NCBI GenBank assembly: GCA_001783515.1
Contig: MFMN01000007.1
Span: 1-40,826, forward strand
From: Candidatus Kaiserbacteria bacterium RIFCSPLOWO2_12_FULL_50_10
GTDB lineage: Bacteria; Patescibacteriota; Minisyncoccia; Phycocordibacterales; UBA918
DNA length: 40,826 bases
Direction of reading: 5' to 3'
Shown here piece after piece: positions 11,161 through 40,794 of this stretch. The translations under genes and the position numbers were made by a program. The notes beneath the pieces were generated by a model. The model searched no databases. It had not been told where the DNA came from and saw nothing but the letters and a program-made list of their open reading frames with translations. Position 1 is the stretch's first letter, and every line of letters starts with the position of its first letter.

Positions 11161-12678
11161 ATGACCGCAACCATCAAAGACATCCTCACCACCATGACGT
11201 ATGCGACTGCCGACGAAAAGGCACTTGTCGAACGTGCATTTATGGTTGCCGACAAAGCACATGATGGGCAGCTGCGGAAGTCTGGTGAACCTTATATTAT
11301 TCACCCGCTCGCCATCGGCAAAATGCTCGCCGAAATGGGCGTCGACGCCGCAACGGTTGCCGCGGGTATTCTCCACGACACCATCGAGGACACCGCGGTT
11401 ACCAGCGACGACATCAAGCGTGACTTCGGCGATGAGATCCTCTTCCTTGTTGAAGGCGTCACCAAACTCGGCGGCGTACGCTACCGCGGCACAGACCGCC
11501 ACAACGAATCACTGCGCCGTCTTTTTGTCGCCACCTCGCGCGATATTCGTATTCTTATCATTAAGCTCGTCGACCGCCTCCATAACATGCGCACCCTCCA
11601 GCATGTTGCCAAAGAAAAGCAGTTCCGTATTGCGCAGGAAACCCTCCAAATCTACGTGCCGGTTGCCCACCGTCTCGGTATTGGCCGTTTGCGTAAAGAG
11701 CTTGAAGACCTTGCGTTTCCCTACGTCTATCCTGACGACCACGAGCGTGTCCTTGCCCTTACCCGAGAACACCGCAAGCACGACGAAGCCATGCTCGAAA
11801 AGTGTCGCAAGGCGCTCCAGCGTCGCCTCGGCGAACTCACCCTTACAAACTTCCGCACGTCCGGCCGTGTGAAGGGGCTCTATTCGCTCTATCAAAAACT
11901 CAAGCGCCGCCACTGGGACATGAACAATGTCTACGACTACCTTGCCATTCGCGTCATTGTCGGCTCTGTTGAAGAATGCTACCAAGTACTCGGCATTATT
12001 CATGAACTCTGGCGACCAATGCCAGGGCGTATCAAAGACTACATTGCCTTCCCGAAACCTAACGGGTATCGCTCGCTCCACACCACCGTCGCCACACCGT
12101 ACGACCGTGTTGTTGAAATCCAAATCCGCACCGAAGACATGCACCGCGCTGCAGAACTCGGTATCGCCTCGCACCTTGTCTACAAAACACAGCAGAACGG
12201 CGGCCCAAATGTCACCAAAAACGAGTCCTGGTTCCGCTCACTTATTCCTCGTTTCGGCAAAACACCTGAGGTTGTCGCCGCACGCCCCGAGGCCGTAACC
12301 ATTCCTGACTGGATCAAAGCGGTCGCCACTTCGTACACACACCACGATGTCACCGACGATGATTTCGACGACGCGCTCCACCAAGACTTCTTCTCAACAC
12401 GCATCTTCGTCTTCACCCCAAACAACGACGTGGTCGACCTTCCGGTCAATGCAACCGTTGTCGATTTTGCCTTTGAAATCCACTCTGACATTGGCGAACA
12501 CGTCTCCGGCGCGCGCGTCAACGGCAAGTTTGTTGGCATTGACACCGCACTCAAAAATGGCGACCGCGTTGAAATCGAAACAAGCGAACGCTCACACCCA
12601 ACCTACAAGTGGCTCGAGTTTGCCAAAACTTCAGAAGCTCGACGCAAAATCCGCGCCTACCTGAAAAAAGCAGCATAA
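11161..12678 (+). CDS. RelA/SpoT-type (p)ppGpp synthetase/hydrolase, C-terminally short
   Basis: A 505-aa bifunctional-looking stringent-response enzyme. The HD hydrolase domain (about 20-180) keeps GILHDTIEDT with His72-Asp73 and KLVDRLHNMRTL. The synthetase domain (about 215-340) has GRVKGLYSLYQKLKRR and VYDYLAIRVIV followed by GRIKDYIAFPKPNGYRSLHT, the GTP/ATP-binding loop. A TGS domain (about 405-465) follows. The protein stops after a short helix, so the helical, zinc-finger/conserved-cysteine and ACT domains (about 200 residues in long RelA/SpoT proteins) are missing. It would make or hydrolyse (p)ppGpp in the cytoplasm; ribosome-dependent control may differ (inference). Confidence 0.93.
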   Translation: MTATIKDILTTMTYATADEKALVERAFMVADKAHDGQLRKSGEPYIIHPLAIGKMLAEMGVDAATVAAGILHDTIEDTAVTSDDIKRDFGDEILFLVEGVTKLGGVRYRGTDRHNESLRRLFVATSRDIRILIIKLVDRLHNMRTLQHVAKEKQFRIAQETLQIYVPVAHRLGIGRLRKELEDLAFPYVYPDDHERVLALTREHRKHDEAMLEKCRKALQRRLGELTLTNFRTSGRVKGLYSLYQKLKRRHWDMNNVYDYLAIRVIVGSVEECYQVLGIIHELWRPMPGRIKDYIAFPKPNGYRSLHTTVATPYDRVVEIQIRTEDMHRAAELGIASHLVYKTQQNGGPNVTKNESWFRSLIPRFGKTPEVVAARPEAVTIPDWIKAVATSYTHHDVTDDDFDDALHQDFFSTRIFVFTPNNDVVDLPVNATVVDFAFEIHSDIGEHVSGARVNGKFVGIDTALKNGDRVEIETSERSHPTYKWLEFAKTSEARRKIRAYLKKAA

Positions 12679-12708
12679 AAAACAGAATGCGAGCGCATTC
12701 TGTTTTTT
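12677..12708. terminator. Bidirectional terminator between spoT-like gene and tgt
   Basis: Perfect 14-bp stem (AAAAAACAGAATGC paired with its complement) and four-base loop, A/T runs on both sides. It covers the end of the RelA/SpoT stop codon and the tgt stop codon, so it serves both convergent genes. Confidence 0.9.
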
Positions 12709-13897
12709 ATGCAGCCAAAATTTCTTCGCGGAGTTTTTTGGTGTAGTTCACAATGACGTACAGATTGTGGATTGAGGCAAGGTGCGCGCCGAGCATTTCA
12801 TTGGCGCGGAAAAGATGTGCGAGGTAGGCTTTGGTGTACTTGGTACAGACCGCGCAATCGCAGTGTTCGTCGAGCGGTGAGAAGTCGCGAATATATTTTG
12901 CGTTCTTGAGATGAATACGCACAATGCCTGCGGACGTGTGGTTATACACCGAGCCGGTACGCGCGATACGTGTTGGCGCAACGCAATCAAACGTATCACA
13001 ACCGTGCATTACGCCGCGCGCGATGTCTTCAGGTTCGCCGATGCCGAGGAGGTGACGAGGTTTATCTTTCGGGAGAATGTCAGTCACAACCTTGAGCGCC
13101 TCGCCAAGATCTTCCTTTGAGAATGAGCCGCCGATGCCGTAGCCATCGAAGTCCATATCACCGAGGATGCGCGCGCTTTCTGCGCGAAGGTCGAGGTGGC
13201 GACCGCCTTGCACCACGCCGTAGAGGCCTTGCTTTTTCAGCGCCTCATAGTTTTGCTTGTGCGCCATAATGGAACGCTTCGCCCAGCGATGGGTTCTGTC
13301 CATCGCTTCCTTTTGGTATTCGTAGTCGGCAGTTGGGGCAGTACATTCATCAAACGCAAAGATAATATCTGCGCCGATCGCATGCTGAATTTCAATCGAG
13401 CGCTCCGCAGTGAAGCGGTGGAGTGAACCGTCGTGATGCGAGGTGAAGGTGACGCCTTCTTCGTCGATTTGGCAGAGCTTGCCGTGTTCTGAGGCGACTT
13501 CTTTTGAGTAGATATTGATGCCTCGCTCAGTGTCGTCGTACTCGCCTTTTGCGAACTTCGTCACGCCTTTACCAAATGCGGCGCCGAGCGAGAATACCTG
13601 GAAACCACCCGAGTCGGTGATGGTCGGCATCTGCCAGTTTGCAAAGGTGTGGAGTCCCCCGGCATCACGAACTACCTCGTGCCCCGGCTCGAGGTAGAGG
13701 TGGTAGGTATTCGCAAGCGCAACCTGCGCGCCGACAAAATCATGGAGGTCTTCGGGCTTGAGCGACTTTACCGTCGCCTTGGTGCCAACCGCCACGAATG
13801 CAGGTGTTTCAATGTCGCCATGCGGCGTATGAATAATACCCGCACGCGCACCATTCGGTAGTTGTTTTTGGAGTTCAAACCAGACGGGAGGTTTCAT
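12707..13897 (-). CDS. tgt: tRNA-guanine transglycosylase
   Basis: A 396-aa enzyme exchanging guanine-34 of GUN-anticodon tRNAs for a queuine precursor. Asp95 in TITDSGGFQVFSLG is the general base region, FDCVAPTRIARTG contains the nucleophilic Asp, and CDCAVCTKYTKAYLAHLF with the following His forms the zinc site; all are family landmarks. The start at 13897 is chosen because family proteins begin here and the upstream FKBP gene stops one base earlier (TAG T ATG), implying translational coupling; the frame continues 58 codons upstream only as a shadow of the FKBP gene. Confidence 0.95.
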   Translation of the reverse strand: MKPPVWFELQKQLPNGARAGIIHTPHGDIETPAFVAVGTKATVKSLKPEDLHDFVGAQVALANTYHLYLEPGHEVVRDAGGLHTFANWQMPTITDSGGFQVFSLGAAFGKGVTKFAKGEYDDTERGINIYSKEVASEHGKLCQIDEEGVTFTSHHDGSLHRFTAERSIEIQHAIGADIIFAFDECTAPTADYEYQKEAMDRTHRWAKRSIMAHKQNYEALKKQGLYGVVQGGRHLDLRAESARILGDMDFDGYGIGGSFSKEDLGEALKVVTDILPKDKPRHLLGIGEPEDIARGVMHGCDTFDCVAPTRIARTGSVYNHTSAGIVRIHLKNAKYIRDFSPLDEHCDCAVCTKYTKAYLAHLFRANEMLGAHLASIHNLYVIVNYTKKLREEILAA

Positions 13898-18305: not shown

Positions 18306-18363
18306 ACAAAAACAGACTGGATTGGCCATCTTCGGGGAGGCGAGGTGCTCAATACAGTCTGTT
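18306..18363 (-). terminator. Hairpin terminator after the ftsL-like gene
   Basis: Arms AACAGACTG (18311-18319) and CAGTCTGTT (18355-18363), extended by ATTG/CAAT after a bulge; read on the minus strand the hairpin is followed by TTTTTG. The 35-nt inner part can fold further. Confidence 0.6.
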
Positions 18364-18398
18364 CTTCCTAACTTGTTCTTCTATAATCATTCATAGGG

Positions 18399-18516
18399 CC
18401 TTCAAAATTGAGTGCAGATGCATTGGCTGGAGGACAGTTTTAACTGTAGGCGTACCCATACGTACGACGGAAGTTAAAACTGTCTGAAGCCAGTGCATAT
18501 GTGCCAATTTTGGAGG
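18399..18516. repeat. Long imperfect inverted repeat H1
   Basis: Arms of about 47 nt (18399-18446 and 18471-18516) agree at roughly four of five positions; the inner 13 bp GACAGTTTTAACT is perfect. The 24-nt loop contains CGTAC...GTACG. It ends one base before the ftsL-like stop codon. Compare H2 at 18846-18971. Confidence 0.8.
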
Positions 18517-18517
18517 T

Positions 18518-18823
18518 TCATCTCCTCGCGACGGCGACATCGCTGCTTTCTGCATACAGTCTCCCACTAAGCGCAACATAGCCGCTTTGCAGCGCGTAGT
18601 CTCGGGTAAGTTCTTGAATTACGGCAACTTGACGCATCTCAAGCGCGTGCGTGTCGCGCTCTATTTCTGCAAGCTCCGCGCTCATTGCACGCAGCGCTAC
18701 CGCATGCATCACCGATTGCACGAGGACATAGCCAAAGAGTGCAAAAACAGCAACCATGCACGAGAGAACTGCGTACGAAATATACGCGCGAGGGATTCGA
18801 AGGGTGTCAGTGTGAGAAGACAT
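18518..18823 (-). CDS. FtsL-like small division protein
   Basis: A 101-aa protein with an N-terminal cytoplasmic stretch, one TM helix (about 14-38), and a heptad-like segment (ELAEIERDTHALEMRQVAVI) outside. Sequence similarity to FtsL is weak, as usual; the call rests on size, topology and position after mraZ-rsmH. FtsL joins FtsB/FtsQ in the divisome. No ftsI or other dcw gene follows. The gene is bracketed by two long inverted repeats, H2 upstream and H1 downstream. Confidence 0.6.
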   Translation of the reverse strand: MSSHTDTLRIPRAYISYAVLSCMVAVFALFGYVLVQSVMHAVALRAMSAELAEIERDTHALEMRQVAVIQELTRDYALQSGYVALSGRLYAESSDVAVARR

Positions 18824-18845
18824 AAGAACAAATGAACAAGTGCAC

Positions 18846-18971
18846 TTTCATCCAAGGATGGCGAATTTGTACTGTCAGGGAGCTATTTTTAACCTTCGCC
18901 GTATGTCATATATACGTCTTCGGCTAAAAATAACTCCCTGCCAGCACAACTTCATCCAACCTTGCATGAAA
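18846..18971. repeat. Long imperfect inverted repeat H2
   Basis: Arms 18846-18894 and 18922-18971 agree at more than four of five positions (shared blocks TTTCAT, CAAGG, CAGGGAG, TATTTTTA). The 27-nt loop has CGTAT...ATACG, echoing the loop of H1 although the arms differ in sequence. Lies between rsmH and the ftsL-like gene. Confidence 0.8.
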
Positions 18972-18992: not shown

Positions 18993-19913
18993 CTATGAGT
19001 CATTTCGAGAAAAAACTCTAAGTTTTGCGCTGCGGGCGCGTGGATTTTGAGCAACTTCGTCGTCACTCGGAATGATTGGTTTTTTGGTGACAACATCACC
19101 TTTGCCGTCTGCGGCCGCCTGACGGAAGGCATGCTTCACCATTCTGTCCTCAAGGGAATGAAAGGTGATAATCGCAAGCCTGCCCTTTGGCGCAAGATGT
19201 GCGAGCGCCTGCGCAATGAACGTTTCGAGTGCGCCGAGCTCATCATTGACGGCAATACGCATCGCCTGAAAGGTTCGCGTTGCAGGATGAATGCCACCAT
19301 GTCGATACGACGCGGGCACTGCCGCTTCGATAATACGTGCGAGCTGCCCAGAGGTTTCGATAACGCCTTCCGCACGTGCGGCAACAATCGCTTGCGCAAT
19401 TTTCCATGCATACTTTTCTTCGCTGTAGCCGCGAAGAATAGTCGCGATAGAATCCGCCTCCCATGCATTAGCGATATCGTGCGCGGTGAATGCGTACGAC
19501 TCTGGGTCGCCATAGGTCATGCGAAGTGGTTCATCCACACGGAACGAGAATCCTTTCCCGCCGCCTTTCGAGTCGTCGCCGCCGAATTGTTCTTGCCGCC
19601 ATCCGAGGTCAGCAAGGATTCCGTCAACTTTATCGTAGCCGATTTGCTCGAGCAGCGGACCAATCTCGCGGAAATTTGCATTCCAGAGACGCACATTCGG
19701 CGCCACCTTCATGAATTTTTCACGTGCTTGTGCGACTGCTTTTTCATCAGCGTCAAGCGCAACGAGCGTGCCGCCCTTCCCCAAGTGCTCCGCTATGAGC
19801 AAACTGTGTCCGGCTGCGCCAAGAGTTGCGTCGACAATAATGTCGCTCGGCTGTATATCGAGCGCATCAACCGCTTCATGCAGAAGGACGGTTATATGGT
19901 GTGTATCGCTCAT
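18993..19913 (-). CDS. rsmH: 16S rRNA (cytosine-1402-N4) methyltransferase RsmH
   Basis: A 306-aa SAM methyltransferase (MraW). Landmarks: HITVLLHEAVDAL, IIVDATLGAAGHSLLIAEHLG (SAM motif I), GILADLGWRQEQF, GGIHPATRTFQAMRIAVNDELG and LAIITFHSLEDRMVKHAFR, which are diagnostic. It methylates N4 of C1402 in the ribosomal P site. The ATG follows the mraZ stop by one base (TAA T ATG), so the two are coupled. Only the loop after GILADLG lacks the usual SSxQLD, reading WRQEQFGG. Confidence 0.95.
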   Translation of the reverse strand: MSDTHHITVLLHEAVDALDIQPSDIIVDATLGAAGHSLLIAEHLGKGGTLVALDADEKAVAQAREKFMKVAPNVRLWNANFREIGPLLEQIGYDKVDGILADLGWRQEQFGGDDSKGGGKGFSFRVDEPLRMTYGDPESYAFTAHDIANAWEADSIATILRGYSEEKYAWKIAQAIVAARAEGVIETSGQLARIIEAAVPASYRHGGIHPATRTFQAMRIAVNDELGALETFIAQALAHLAPKGRLAIITFHSLEDRMVKHAFRQAAADGKGDVVTKKPIIPSDDEVAQNPRARSAKLRVFSRNDS

Positions 19914-19914
19914 A

Positions 19915-20343
19915 TTATGCGCGACTTACTATCTTCTCTGCCATCTCCGCAGCATTTGTTTCAATGCCTGCAGAATAGTCACGCCAGTGAGCTTCATCCC
20001 AGACTTCCACACGATTGTGGACACCTGCAAGGACGACTGTTTTGTCGAACTTTGCAAATGTTTTGAGCACGTCGGGGACAAGCACACGCCCGGCACTGTC
20101 GACATCCACTTCCGCAGCTGCGGAGAGCATGTAGCGTGCAAAGCCTCGTTCGTCGGCAGACGCAAAGGGAGAATTGGTGAACATCGCACTCACCTTTTCC
20201 CACTCCGCGAGAGTGTATACCGTAAGGCACCCCTCAAGACCACGAGTAATGACCACCGACTTGCCGAGCTCCTGACGCCATTTGGCAGGGAGCGATACGC
20301 GGTTTTTGATATCGATCGTATGTGAATATTCACCGATAAGCAT
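19915..20343 (-). CDS. mraZ: Transcriptional regulator MraZ
   Basis: A 142-aa protein with two AbrB-like halves: GEYSHTIDIKNRVSLPAKWR and AEVDVDSAGRVLVPDVLKTF, plus the conserved DKTVVLAGVHNRVEVWD. MraZ binds GTGG-type repeats in its own promoter and controls the division cluster (known in E. coli and others). Here four GTGG boxes at 10, 21 and 10-bp intervals overlap the predicted promoter. The transcript would have a leader of nearly 200 nt with a strong hairpin, unlike most genes in the window. Confidence 0.95.
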   Translation of the reverse strand: MLIGEYSHTIDIKNRVSLPAKWRQELGKSVVITRGLEGCLTVYTLAEWEKVSAMFTNSPFASADERGFARYMLSAAAEVDVDSAGRVLVPDVLKTFAKFDKTVVLAGVHNRVEVWDEAHWRDYSAGIETNAAEMAEKIVSRA

Positions 20344-20439
20344 GTGGTCATGACGTGACAGGAACGTGTATGCTTCATTTACGTAATGTAAAGCAATTGC
20401 ACTTCTTTCAAAATGGGATGAAATCGTGCAGATTTTTAG

Positions 20440-20486
20440 AAATTTTCACGGGAGCCGTGCCCGATGCACGGTGAGTGTGAAAATTT
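20440..20486 (-). ncRNA. Structured 5' leader hairpin of mraZ mRNA
   Basis: Outer stem AAATTTTCAC / GTGAAAATTT (10 bp), five-base bulges on each side, then inner stem CCGTGC / GCACGG with a five-base loop. It lies in the long leader between the predicted mraZ promoter and start codon. A regulatory role is inferred only from structure and position. Confidence 0.5.
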
Positions 20487-20527
20487 GTGAAAAGCTGTGC
20501 GAGTTCGCCCATTTTGGAAGAAGTGCT

Positions 20528-20578
20528 CCACTATCTCCCACCACGGGTCAAGTATATGCCACTTTCCCCCACCGTCAA
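20528..20578 (-). promoter_or_regulatory. mraZ promoter with phased MraZ operator
   Basis: Minus strand: TTGACG (20573-20578), 16-nt spacer, TATACT (20551-20556). Four GTGG boxes (complement at 20569-20572, 20559-20562, 20538-20541, 20528-20531) are spaced 10, 21 and 10 bp, all on one DNA face; two lie in the spacer and two just past the start point. This fits autorepression by MraZ. Confidence 0.7.
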
Positions 20579-20601
20579 ACACAAACCTGTGCATAAGTGG
20601 G

Positions 20602-20632
20602 TTGACATTACTTTGAAAAGTATGTTTACTAT
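20602..20632 (+). promoter_or_regulatory. Promoter of the PrmC-like gene
   Basis: TTGACA (20602-20607) and TACTAT (20627-20632) with a 19-nt spacer; the -10 is 7 nt before the ATG at 20640. Divergent from mraZ. Confidence 0.55.
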
Positions 20633-20639
20633 GCCCACG

Positions 20640-21380
20640 ATGGACGCACGCGAAGAAAAATGGCTACTTGAAGAAGGTTTTAACGGCGTCGAAAACAGCG
20701 AGTATTTTGTTGCGCGCGAAAAATTACGCAGCGGTGAACCGCTCGCGTATCTCATTGGCACCATGCCGTTTGGACCACTCACTATCGCACTTGCTTCAAA
20801 GCCGCTTATTCCTCGCGTGGAAACAGAGTTTTGGGTCACGAAGGTTTTACACGAACTGCCATTCGTGCCTGAAAAAATCCTCGACCTCTGCGCTGGCTCT
20901 GGCTGTATCGGCACGCTTGCGCTCCACACCTTCCCTTCCGCACATGTCGATTTTGCCGAACTTGACGAATCCCACCACGAAACCATTCGTGAAAATATCG
21001 TACGGAATAATCTCCCGCTAAAAAACACCTCCATTAATGGAGGGGATCTTTTTGAGCATATTCAAGGAGGAGCAACCTACGATTTAATTCTTACCAACCC
21101 ACCCTACATCGACCCCGCCCTTGACCGCACACAGACTGAGGTAAAAATGCATGAACCGCACCTCGCACTGTATGGTGGTGCCAAAGGAATGGAAATTATT
21201 GCGCGTATTATTCGTGAAGCCCCAAGACATCTTGCGGAGCACGGCATCCTCGTCATCGAACATGAACCAGAGCAATGTGAGGCTGTTGCTAAGCTTGCGA
21301 TGGTGAATGGTTTTTCTGTAACACATTACCCTGACCAGTACGGAGTGTTGCGATATACTATTCTAAAAAGGTTATCGTGA
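20640..21380 (+). CDS. prmC: PrmC/HemK-like release factor glutamine methyltransferase
   Basis: A 246-aa enzyme. REKLRSGEPLAYLIGTMPFG, LIPRVETEFWV, ILDLCAGSGCIGTLAL (SAM motif I) and LTNPPYID (the NPPY catalytic motif) are the PrmC landmarks. PrmC methylates the Gln of the GGQ motif in release factors; the RF2 gene nearby keeps GGQ. The N-terminal helical domain is shorter than in E. coli PrmC (277 aa). The start at 20640 is preferred to 20487 because a promoter and the mraZ leader region lie upstream. A 16-bp palindrome (21028-21043) falls in the codons for NTSINGG. Confidence 0.85.
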   Translation: MDAREEKWLLEEGFNGVENSEYFVAREKLRSGEPLAYLIGTMPFGPLTIALASKPLIPRVETEFWVTKVLHELPFVPEKILDLCAGSGCIGTLALHTFPSAHVDFAELDESHHETIRENIVRNNLPLKNTSINGGDLFEHIQGGATYDLILTNPPYIDPALDRTQTEVKMHEPHLALYGGAKGMEIIARIIREAPRHLAEHGILVIEHEPEQCEAVAKLAMVNGFSVTHYPDQYGVLRYTILKRLS

Positions 21381-28523: not shown

Positions 28524-28643
28524 CTGGATTCCTCCTGAATGACAAAAGGAAAATGTAATGCTTTTGATTGCTGTGTAGTTAAATCGACGCAGATTTAACT
28601 CTTCGTTTCTCTAAAACACTACAGGCCGCTTTTGTCATCCAGG
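28524..28643. repeat. REP-like palindromic repeat, copy 4 (full unit)
   Basis: The complete 120-bp form: CTGGATTCCTCCTGAATGAC with ACAAAAG at one end, its inverted counterpart CTTTTGTCATCCAGG (28629-28643) at the other, and AGTTAAATC / GATTTAACT at the centre (28577-28600). The whole unit is one long imperfect palindrome, of which copies 1 and 3 keep one arm. It fills most of the 327-nt gap between the kinase-like gene and the S41 protease gene. Confidence 0.8.
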
Positions 28644-28725
28644 TGGGAGGAGGTGAATTGGCACGAAGTGACAAGAGAGGCTGCCCTGGGGTATCCAGAT
28701 TGACAGGCAAAACTTTCAATATAAA

Positions 28726-40704: not shown

Positions 40705-40794
40705 GTTCGACTCCCCGTAGGGTCTACAACATACAACAAAACCAAAGCTGACGCTTTGGTTTTGGTATGTTGTGACCCTACGGGGAGTCGAACC
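40705..40794. repeat. Large palindrome including an inverted copy of the tRNA-Glu 3' end
   Basis: The arm 40705-40724 is the inverse complement of tRNA-Glu bases at 40775-40794; between them ACAACATAC / GTATGTTGT and AAAACCAAAGC / GCTTTGGTTTT continue the pairing with few mismatches, giving arms of more than 40 nt around TGAC. Confidence 0.8.
40738..40763 (-). terminator. Terminator after tRNA-Glu
   Basis: Stem AAAACCAAAGC / GCTTTGGTTTT, four-base loop, T-rich tail on the minus strand, located 9 nt after the tRNA 3' end. Confidence 0.75.

Follow-up and report, generated by a model that had tools for sequence, protein, structure and literature searches.

A previously undescribed family of strand-specific elements behind stop codons in many Patescibacteria includes the hairpins around an ftsL-like gene

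The window analyzed here, a stretch of 40,826 nucleotides of contig MFMN01000007.1 from Candidatus Kaiserbacteria bacterium RIFCSPLOWO2_12_FULL_50_10, contains an mraZ-rsmH-ftsL cluster that is surrounded by three long hairpins of one family (Table 1). Two of these, denoted H1 and H2, had been reported in a preliminary description as long imperfect palindromes that bracket the ftsL-like gene, and both are indeed present there, far from chance, with H1 starting right behind the ftsL stop codon. When folded as single-stranded DNA, they show z-scores of -9.8 (H1) and -8.4 (H2), and the minus-strand RNAs show z-scores of -7.6 and -12.1, respectively; in either case, none of the 200 shuffled sequences folded as well. 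The same description assigned to both palindromes a loop of 24-27 nt containing CGTA...TACG. The supposed loop is in fact a short stem (CGTAC/GTACG) between purine-rich internal loops, so that the hairpins close almost to the tip.

Table 1. Members of the hairpin family and neighboring features in the mraZ-rsmH-ftsL region of the window
Feature	Position	Strand	Remarks
Terminator-like hairpin followed by a T-run	18308-18366	-	past H1, downstream in the sense of ftsL
H1, full-length family member, 118 bp	18399-18516	plus strand of the element on +	right end adjoins the stop codon of the ftsL-like gene (18518), antisense to the gene; 112 bits with the A1 model
ftsL-like gene, 101 aa	18518-18823	-	named from size, apparent membrane segment and position after rsmH; without Pfam match
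H2, full-length, more divergent family member, 126 bp	~18846-18971	plus strand of the element on -	between rsmH and the ftsL-like gene; 103 bits with the A1 model
rsmH (mraW methylase)	18993-19913	-	PF01795, E 2.5e-90
mraZ	19915-20343	-	PF02381, E 1e-34
Third family member	20405-20521	+	upstream of mraZ, at 11 nt from the stop codon of the minus-strand ORF 20531-21034; 124 bits with the A1 model
ORF, 167 aa	20531-21034	-	stop precedes the third family member

Further inverted repeats are found elsewhere in the window. A 116-bp imperfect palindrome between two minus-strand genes (28531-28646) does not match the models of the family and may be a different repeat, whereas a near-perfect 46-bp palindrome between converging ORFs (12670-12715), with a weak match to the R2 model described below, is probably a bidirectional terminator. 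The 20-nt sequence GTTCGACTCCCCGTAGGGTC occurs twice at 40705-40793, in perfect copies of inverted orientation, and one of these lies within a partial tRNA match at the end of the window.

A BLAST search of the 819-kb genome that includes the window, with H1 as the query, retrieves about 15 more relatives of constant length and 70-78% identity, and searches with H2 and with the third palindrome join the same set. One pair of copies within the genome is 95% alike. A covariance model derived from an alignment of 27 copies (A1) detects about 41 full-length copies in this genome, including H1, H2 and the third element, with H1 and H2 in opposite orientations. Because both match one covariance model, H1 and H2 are true relatives that share common ancestry rather than look-alikes. 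In genomes that are all metagenome assemblies, and for which the covariance-model E-values are rough, the A1 model gives 53 matches at E<=1e-3 in a genome of the same genus (Candidatus Kaiserbacteria bacterium RIFCSPHIGHO2_02_FULL_49_34) and 43 in a genome of another genus of the same family, although in these counts a palindrome may figure on both strands.

The family extends well beyond these relatives. With a second model, R2, built from 42 sequences, at least 46 of the 384 genomes sampled from the class were found to have members, as were at least 13 genomes of other classes in a phylum sample; both numbers are lower bounds because only eight candidates per genome were scored. A fuller search yielded 30, 28, 24 and 10 matches in four genomes of other families and 63 in one further genome of the home family. 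Across the class, the members retain their length and layout, and the outer 18-20 bp are largely or completely different in sequence. There was no match of the hairpin family to the covariance models of Rfam above the gathering score, no match to the element in blastn searches of phage, plasmid and E. coli collections, and nothing relevant in the literature on palindromic repeats of Patescibacteria/CPR. Judging by the Rfam and literature searches, the family of about 128-base elements to which the hairpins around ftsL belong, and which is scattered over many Patescibacteria, has not been described before.

Some copies carry a short 5' extension. In the plus-strand consensus, the outer stem, which is of the CAAAATTG type in the home family and variable in sequence over the phylum, is followed inward by AUGCAGUU(C)..., by a middle stem that is variable yet paired, and by a conserved tip, GAGCCGUAY-loop-RUACGGUGA. 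Internal loops of the plus strand are purine-rich and, as far as the sequence allows one to tell, could contain tandem G.A pairs. Complementarity of the arms continues for about 7 nt past the 114-nt core and then drops to background.

The arms differ in sequence through compensatory change. In the A1 consensus, 31 of the 39 pairs have changed on both sides with pairing kept; 94.3% of the alignment cells are paired compared with 75.5% in shuffles (none of 500 shuffles was as good), the covariation score is 0.553 vs. 0.202, and a control in which the partner is shifted by one column reduces pairing to about 40%. In both A1 and R2, covariation is far above the controls. The preliminary description had inferred selection on folding, or alternatively two members of a diverged mobile family, and had named a lack of structural homologues together with non-compensatory arm changes as the outcome that would speak against this. 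The covariance search that it proposed led to the opposite result, with plentiful structural homologues and compensatory arms, in agreement with both suggestions.

The two strands of the element are not equivalent. The plus strand folds better than the minus strand in all 62 copies compared in three genomes, by 19.5 kcal/mol on average (mean -19.5 kcal/mol), and the same preference holds at 42 of 42 loci elsewhere (35/35 and 7/7). At several positions, most sequences of A1 and R2 have a fixed U.G or G.U pair, and in a symmetric alignment, the plus arms contain 387 G.U pairs vs. 84 A.C pairs. A double-stranded palindrome gives no reason for a strand preference, so selection must act, or have acted, on a folded plus-sense single strand, either RNA or ssDNA.

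The elements are typically located immediately behind stop codons, antisense to the preceding gene. ORFs were identified by length and codon usage with a simple caller of our own, so that the counts are approximate: in three genomes (the analysis covers about 90% of the sequence of G000 and a smaller share of the other genomes), 94 of 127 elements have no more than 20 nt between the plus 3' (right) end and the stop codon of an opposite-strand gene, whereas the left end is that close to a stop in only 3 of 127. Among the 94 copies, the distance to the opposing stop has a mode of 3 and is nearly always 1-9 nt, and the adjoining stop is TAA in 68 cases, TAG in 24 and TGA in 2. Inspection of the remaining 33 elements revealed several missed genes, including ftsL behind H1 and the ORF behind the third element. 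Outside the three genomes, the rule is kept at 22 of 35 loci and reversed at none, and it is kept at 7 of 7 further loci, some of them from other classes. H2 is an exception to the orientation rule, with the plus strand running in the sense of rsmH and ftsL. The usual position right behind a stop, with the structured strand facing backwards, suggests that the members of the family are small jumping elements that land with unusual precision.

Several other accounts of this placement were considered and rejected. In 59 of 70 cases, the element is directed against the leading strand, but those on lagging-strand genes follow the gene (10/10), which speaks against replication-strand targeting and indicates that the gene end is primary and the leading-strand bias secondary. 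Against a simple TAA/TAG target motif, stops account for only about 5% of such intergenic trinucleotides, yet most copies are at real stops. High expression of the carrier genes was rejected as well, codon bias being raised weakly and inconsistently. In the last codons of the carrier genes, third positions before the stop are rich in C and poor in T, beyond what is seen in genes at large.

It is very unlikely that the elements are bidirectional transcription terminators that merely resemble each other. An ordinary intrinsic terminator does occupy the same place at two orthologous sites that lack the element, but there is no general U-tract after the element, a separate terminator-like hairpin is found further downstream in 20 of the 94 cases and also past H1, and the phylum-wide conserved blocks, length and strand bias exceed what terminators show. 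Still harder to credit are integron-like attC recombination sites, with gene and site forming a cassette: the general appearance of a hairpin that follows a stop, folds on the antisense strand and has a variable inner stem is shared, but the R'' (RYYYAAC) and R' (GTTRRRY) core boxes are present in only 2 of 116 copies, the tip is conserved, and the elements are scattered singly behind core genes, without arrays. The proposal that the hairpins are attenuation or recombination points specific to ftsL is not supported, given that the same element is found behind dozens of unrelated genes in the genome and that ftsL has its own terminator-like hairpin downstream of H1. H1 and H2 are neither a chance pair nor an attenuator particular to ftsL; RNA processing at these hairpins is possible.

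Another reading assigns the function to plus-strand RNA: antisense transcripts entering a gene from the 3' end would fold and be blocked or processed, the element acting as an antisense insulator in a lineage without Rho. At almost all sites, the strand with the RNA-like structure is the antisense one, and no Rho protein (TIGR00767) was detected above the cut-off in 37 genomes related to the window genome, with control genomes positive, which makes this role notable. We nevertheless consider it improbable because no plus-strand promoter was found, 76 of the 94 sites have co-directional genes on both sides, an arrangement in which one would not expect much antisense transcription, and only a few percent of the genes are accompanied by an element.

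The main rival to a mobile hairpin is a function in the 3' UTR maintained by the host, namely an old structured 3' UTR or intercistronic hairpin selected for mRNA stability or for translation/transcription coupling of the upstream gene. The exact placement behind stops and the fixed orientation are in line with such a cis element, and the absence of Rho in the searched genomes makes other 3' end devices plausible. Furthermore, loci are shared above chance: between the window genome and the relative from the same genus, the element follows both copies of 13 orthologous genes, where 2.0 would be expected; for the two genera, whose proteins are 54% identical, the number is 9, against an expectation of 2.5. 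The element is common to all three compared genomes at atpE, rplL (L7/L12), rplF, gyrA and pilC, and gyrA carries a member again in another family. Conversely, the mRNA strand is the weaker folder, and it is the antisense strand that carries the conserved G.U pairs and the G.A-type loops; of three genomes, only one shows a raised codon-bias proxy of expression; and when the gyrA 3' ends of relatives were compared by coordinates, the member was seen, among the genomes listed, only in those with high copy numbers and was missing in most relatives. On balance, we regard host maintenance as a possible but rather doubtful explanation.

Elements at orthologous genes are as dissimilar as random pairs, with the exception of ndk, where compensatory change is observed at a fixed locus. 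The low likeness could result from re-insertion, from conversion among copies, or from saturation, which may conceal orthology of the elements. The shared sites and ndk fit long retention in place as well as re-insertion, and to that extent count against mobility.

Some sites are empty in one of the genomes. There, the stop is followed by the next gene, by an ordinary intrinsic terminator, or by a remnant of the outer arms. Where the flanks can be aligned, the extra DNA comprises the hairpin and, at its end distal to the stop, roughly another 15-45 nt; no clean target-site duplication was detected in this comparison. A 16-nt motif, CGTAATNTNNAGCAAT, is found at a fixed distance 5' of the plus hairpin in about 25 of 85 copies of the genus (log-likelihood 111 vs. 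about 55 in shuffles). This extra DNA and the fixed-distance motif are the expected trace of a mobile unit with a defined end. The possibility that the motif, in roughly 30% of the copies in the genus, is a plus-strand promoter of the element itself was rejected, no convincing promoter being apparent. In some derivatives, the inner hairpin is deleted and only the outer arms are left (G000:C8 7667-7729, G000:C10 10265-10340, G001:C17 2782-2863), owing either to palindrome instability or to excision, of which they would be footprints. In others, the inner part of the hairpin is enlarged by 60-90 bp (G001:C9 43650-43872, G001:C18 22214-22430, G024:C2 1388-1581, G024:C2 296721-296912).

Among the known repeats, ERIC/IRU, Correia/NEMIS, RUP and RPE are non-coding, dispersed, about 100-200 bp long, and have long hairpins predicted in their transcripts, often with TA ends; for ERIC, an orientation-dependent effect on mRNA stability has been described (PMC2229807). 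The present element resembles the MITEs of the ERIC/Correia/RUP type in size, in the terminal inverted repeats and in the lack of a transposase gene. It differs from these and from RPE in sequence, in the phylum in which it occurs and in its phylum-wide spread, in the near-exact anchoring behind stops in one orientation, and in a fold that is specific to one strand and has G.A-type loops and conserved G.U pairs. TA is found on both sides at arm positions +2 to +5 in 48 of 116 copies, the position not being constant.

The REP/TnpAREP and IS200/IS605 systems employ strand-specific ssDNA hairpins, and the site of cleavage is recognized through base pairing with a guide of four nucleotides on the 5' side (PMC8266576, PMC6006769). 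The element is likewise a strand-specific single-strand hairpin with conserved mismatches, and the possible pairing of its 5' arm with the adjacent target would parallel the guide; unlike these systems, it is two to five times longer and its orientation follows genes instead of replication. Membership in the REP/RAYT group was rejected: only 9 of 116 copies have a GTAG or CGTC at most 20 nt from the 5' end, so that there is no fixed tag, and no Y1/HUH transposase (PF01797) was found in G000 or G001, the two genomes richest in close copies (assemblies 95-97% complete), matches being present in only some relatives.

On the evidence of the fold, placement and empty sites, we give about an even chance to the reading that a non-autonomous mobile hairpin family, MITE/REP-like and Patescibacteria-wide, comprises H1, H2 and the third copy. 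Such an element would spread as a folded plus single strand, ssDNA or RNA, recognized by a putative enzyme supplied in trans; the outer 5' arm would pair with the target adjoining the stop, and insertions would survive mainly behind stop codons. Once inserted, it would provide the mRNA with a 3' hairpin that may stabilize or insulate the upstream cistron, as REP and ERIC repeats are known to do. A more specific version, which we hold to be unlikely, is that this pairing, with the sequence around the stop on the antisense strand, would guide insertion to gene ends, so that a putative recombinase delivers the folded strand, ssDNA or RNA, behind coding regions with the genes left intact, throughout the phylum.

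Patescibacteria are ultra-small bacteria with tiny genomes and few known repeats. The covariance model of the hairpin family is ready for use in genome annotation. If the mobile reading is true, the family, with up to about 60 matches per genome, would exemplify a novel lifestyle of parasites in compact genomes, with a single reading strand and a constant position after stop codons; alternatively, if the host maintains the hairpins, they would be a new 3' end device for bacteria without Rho.
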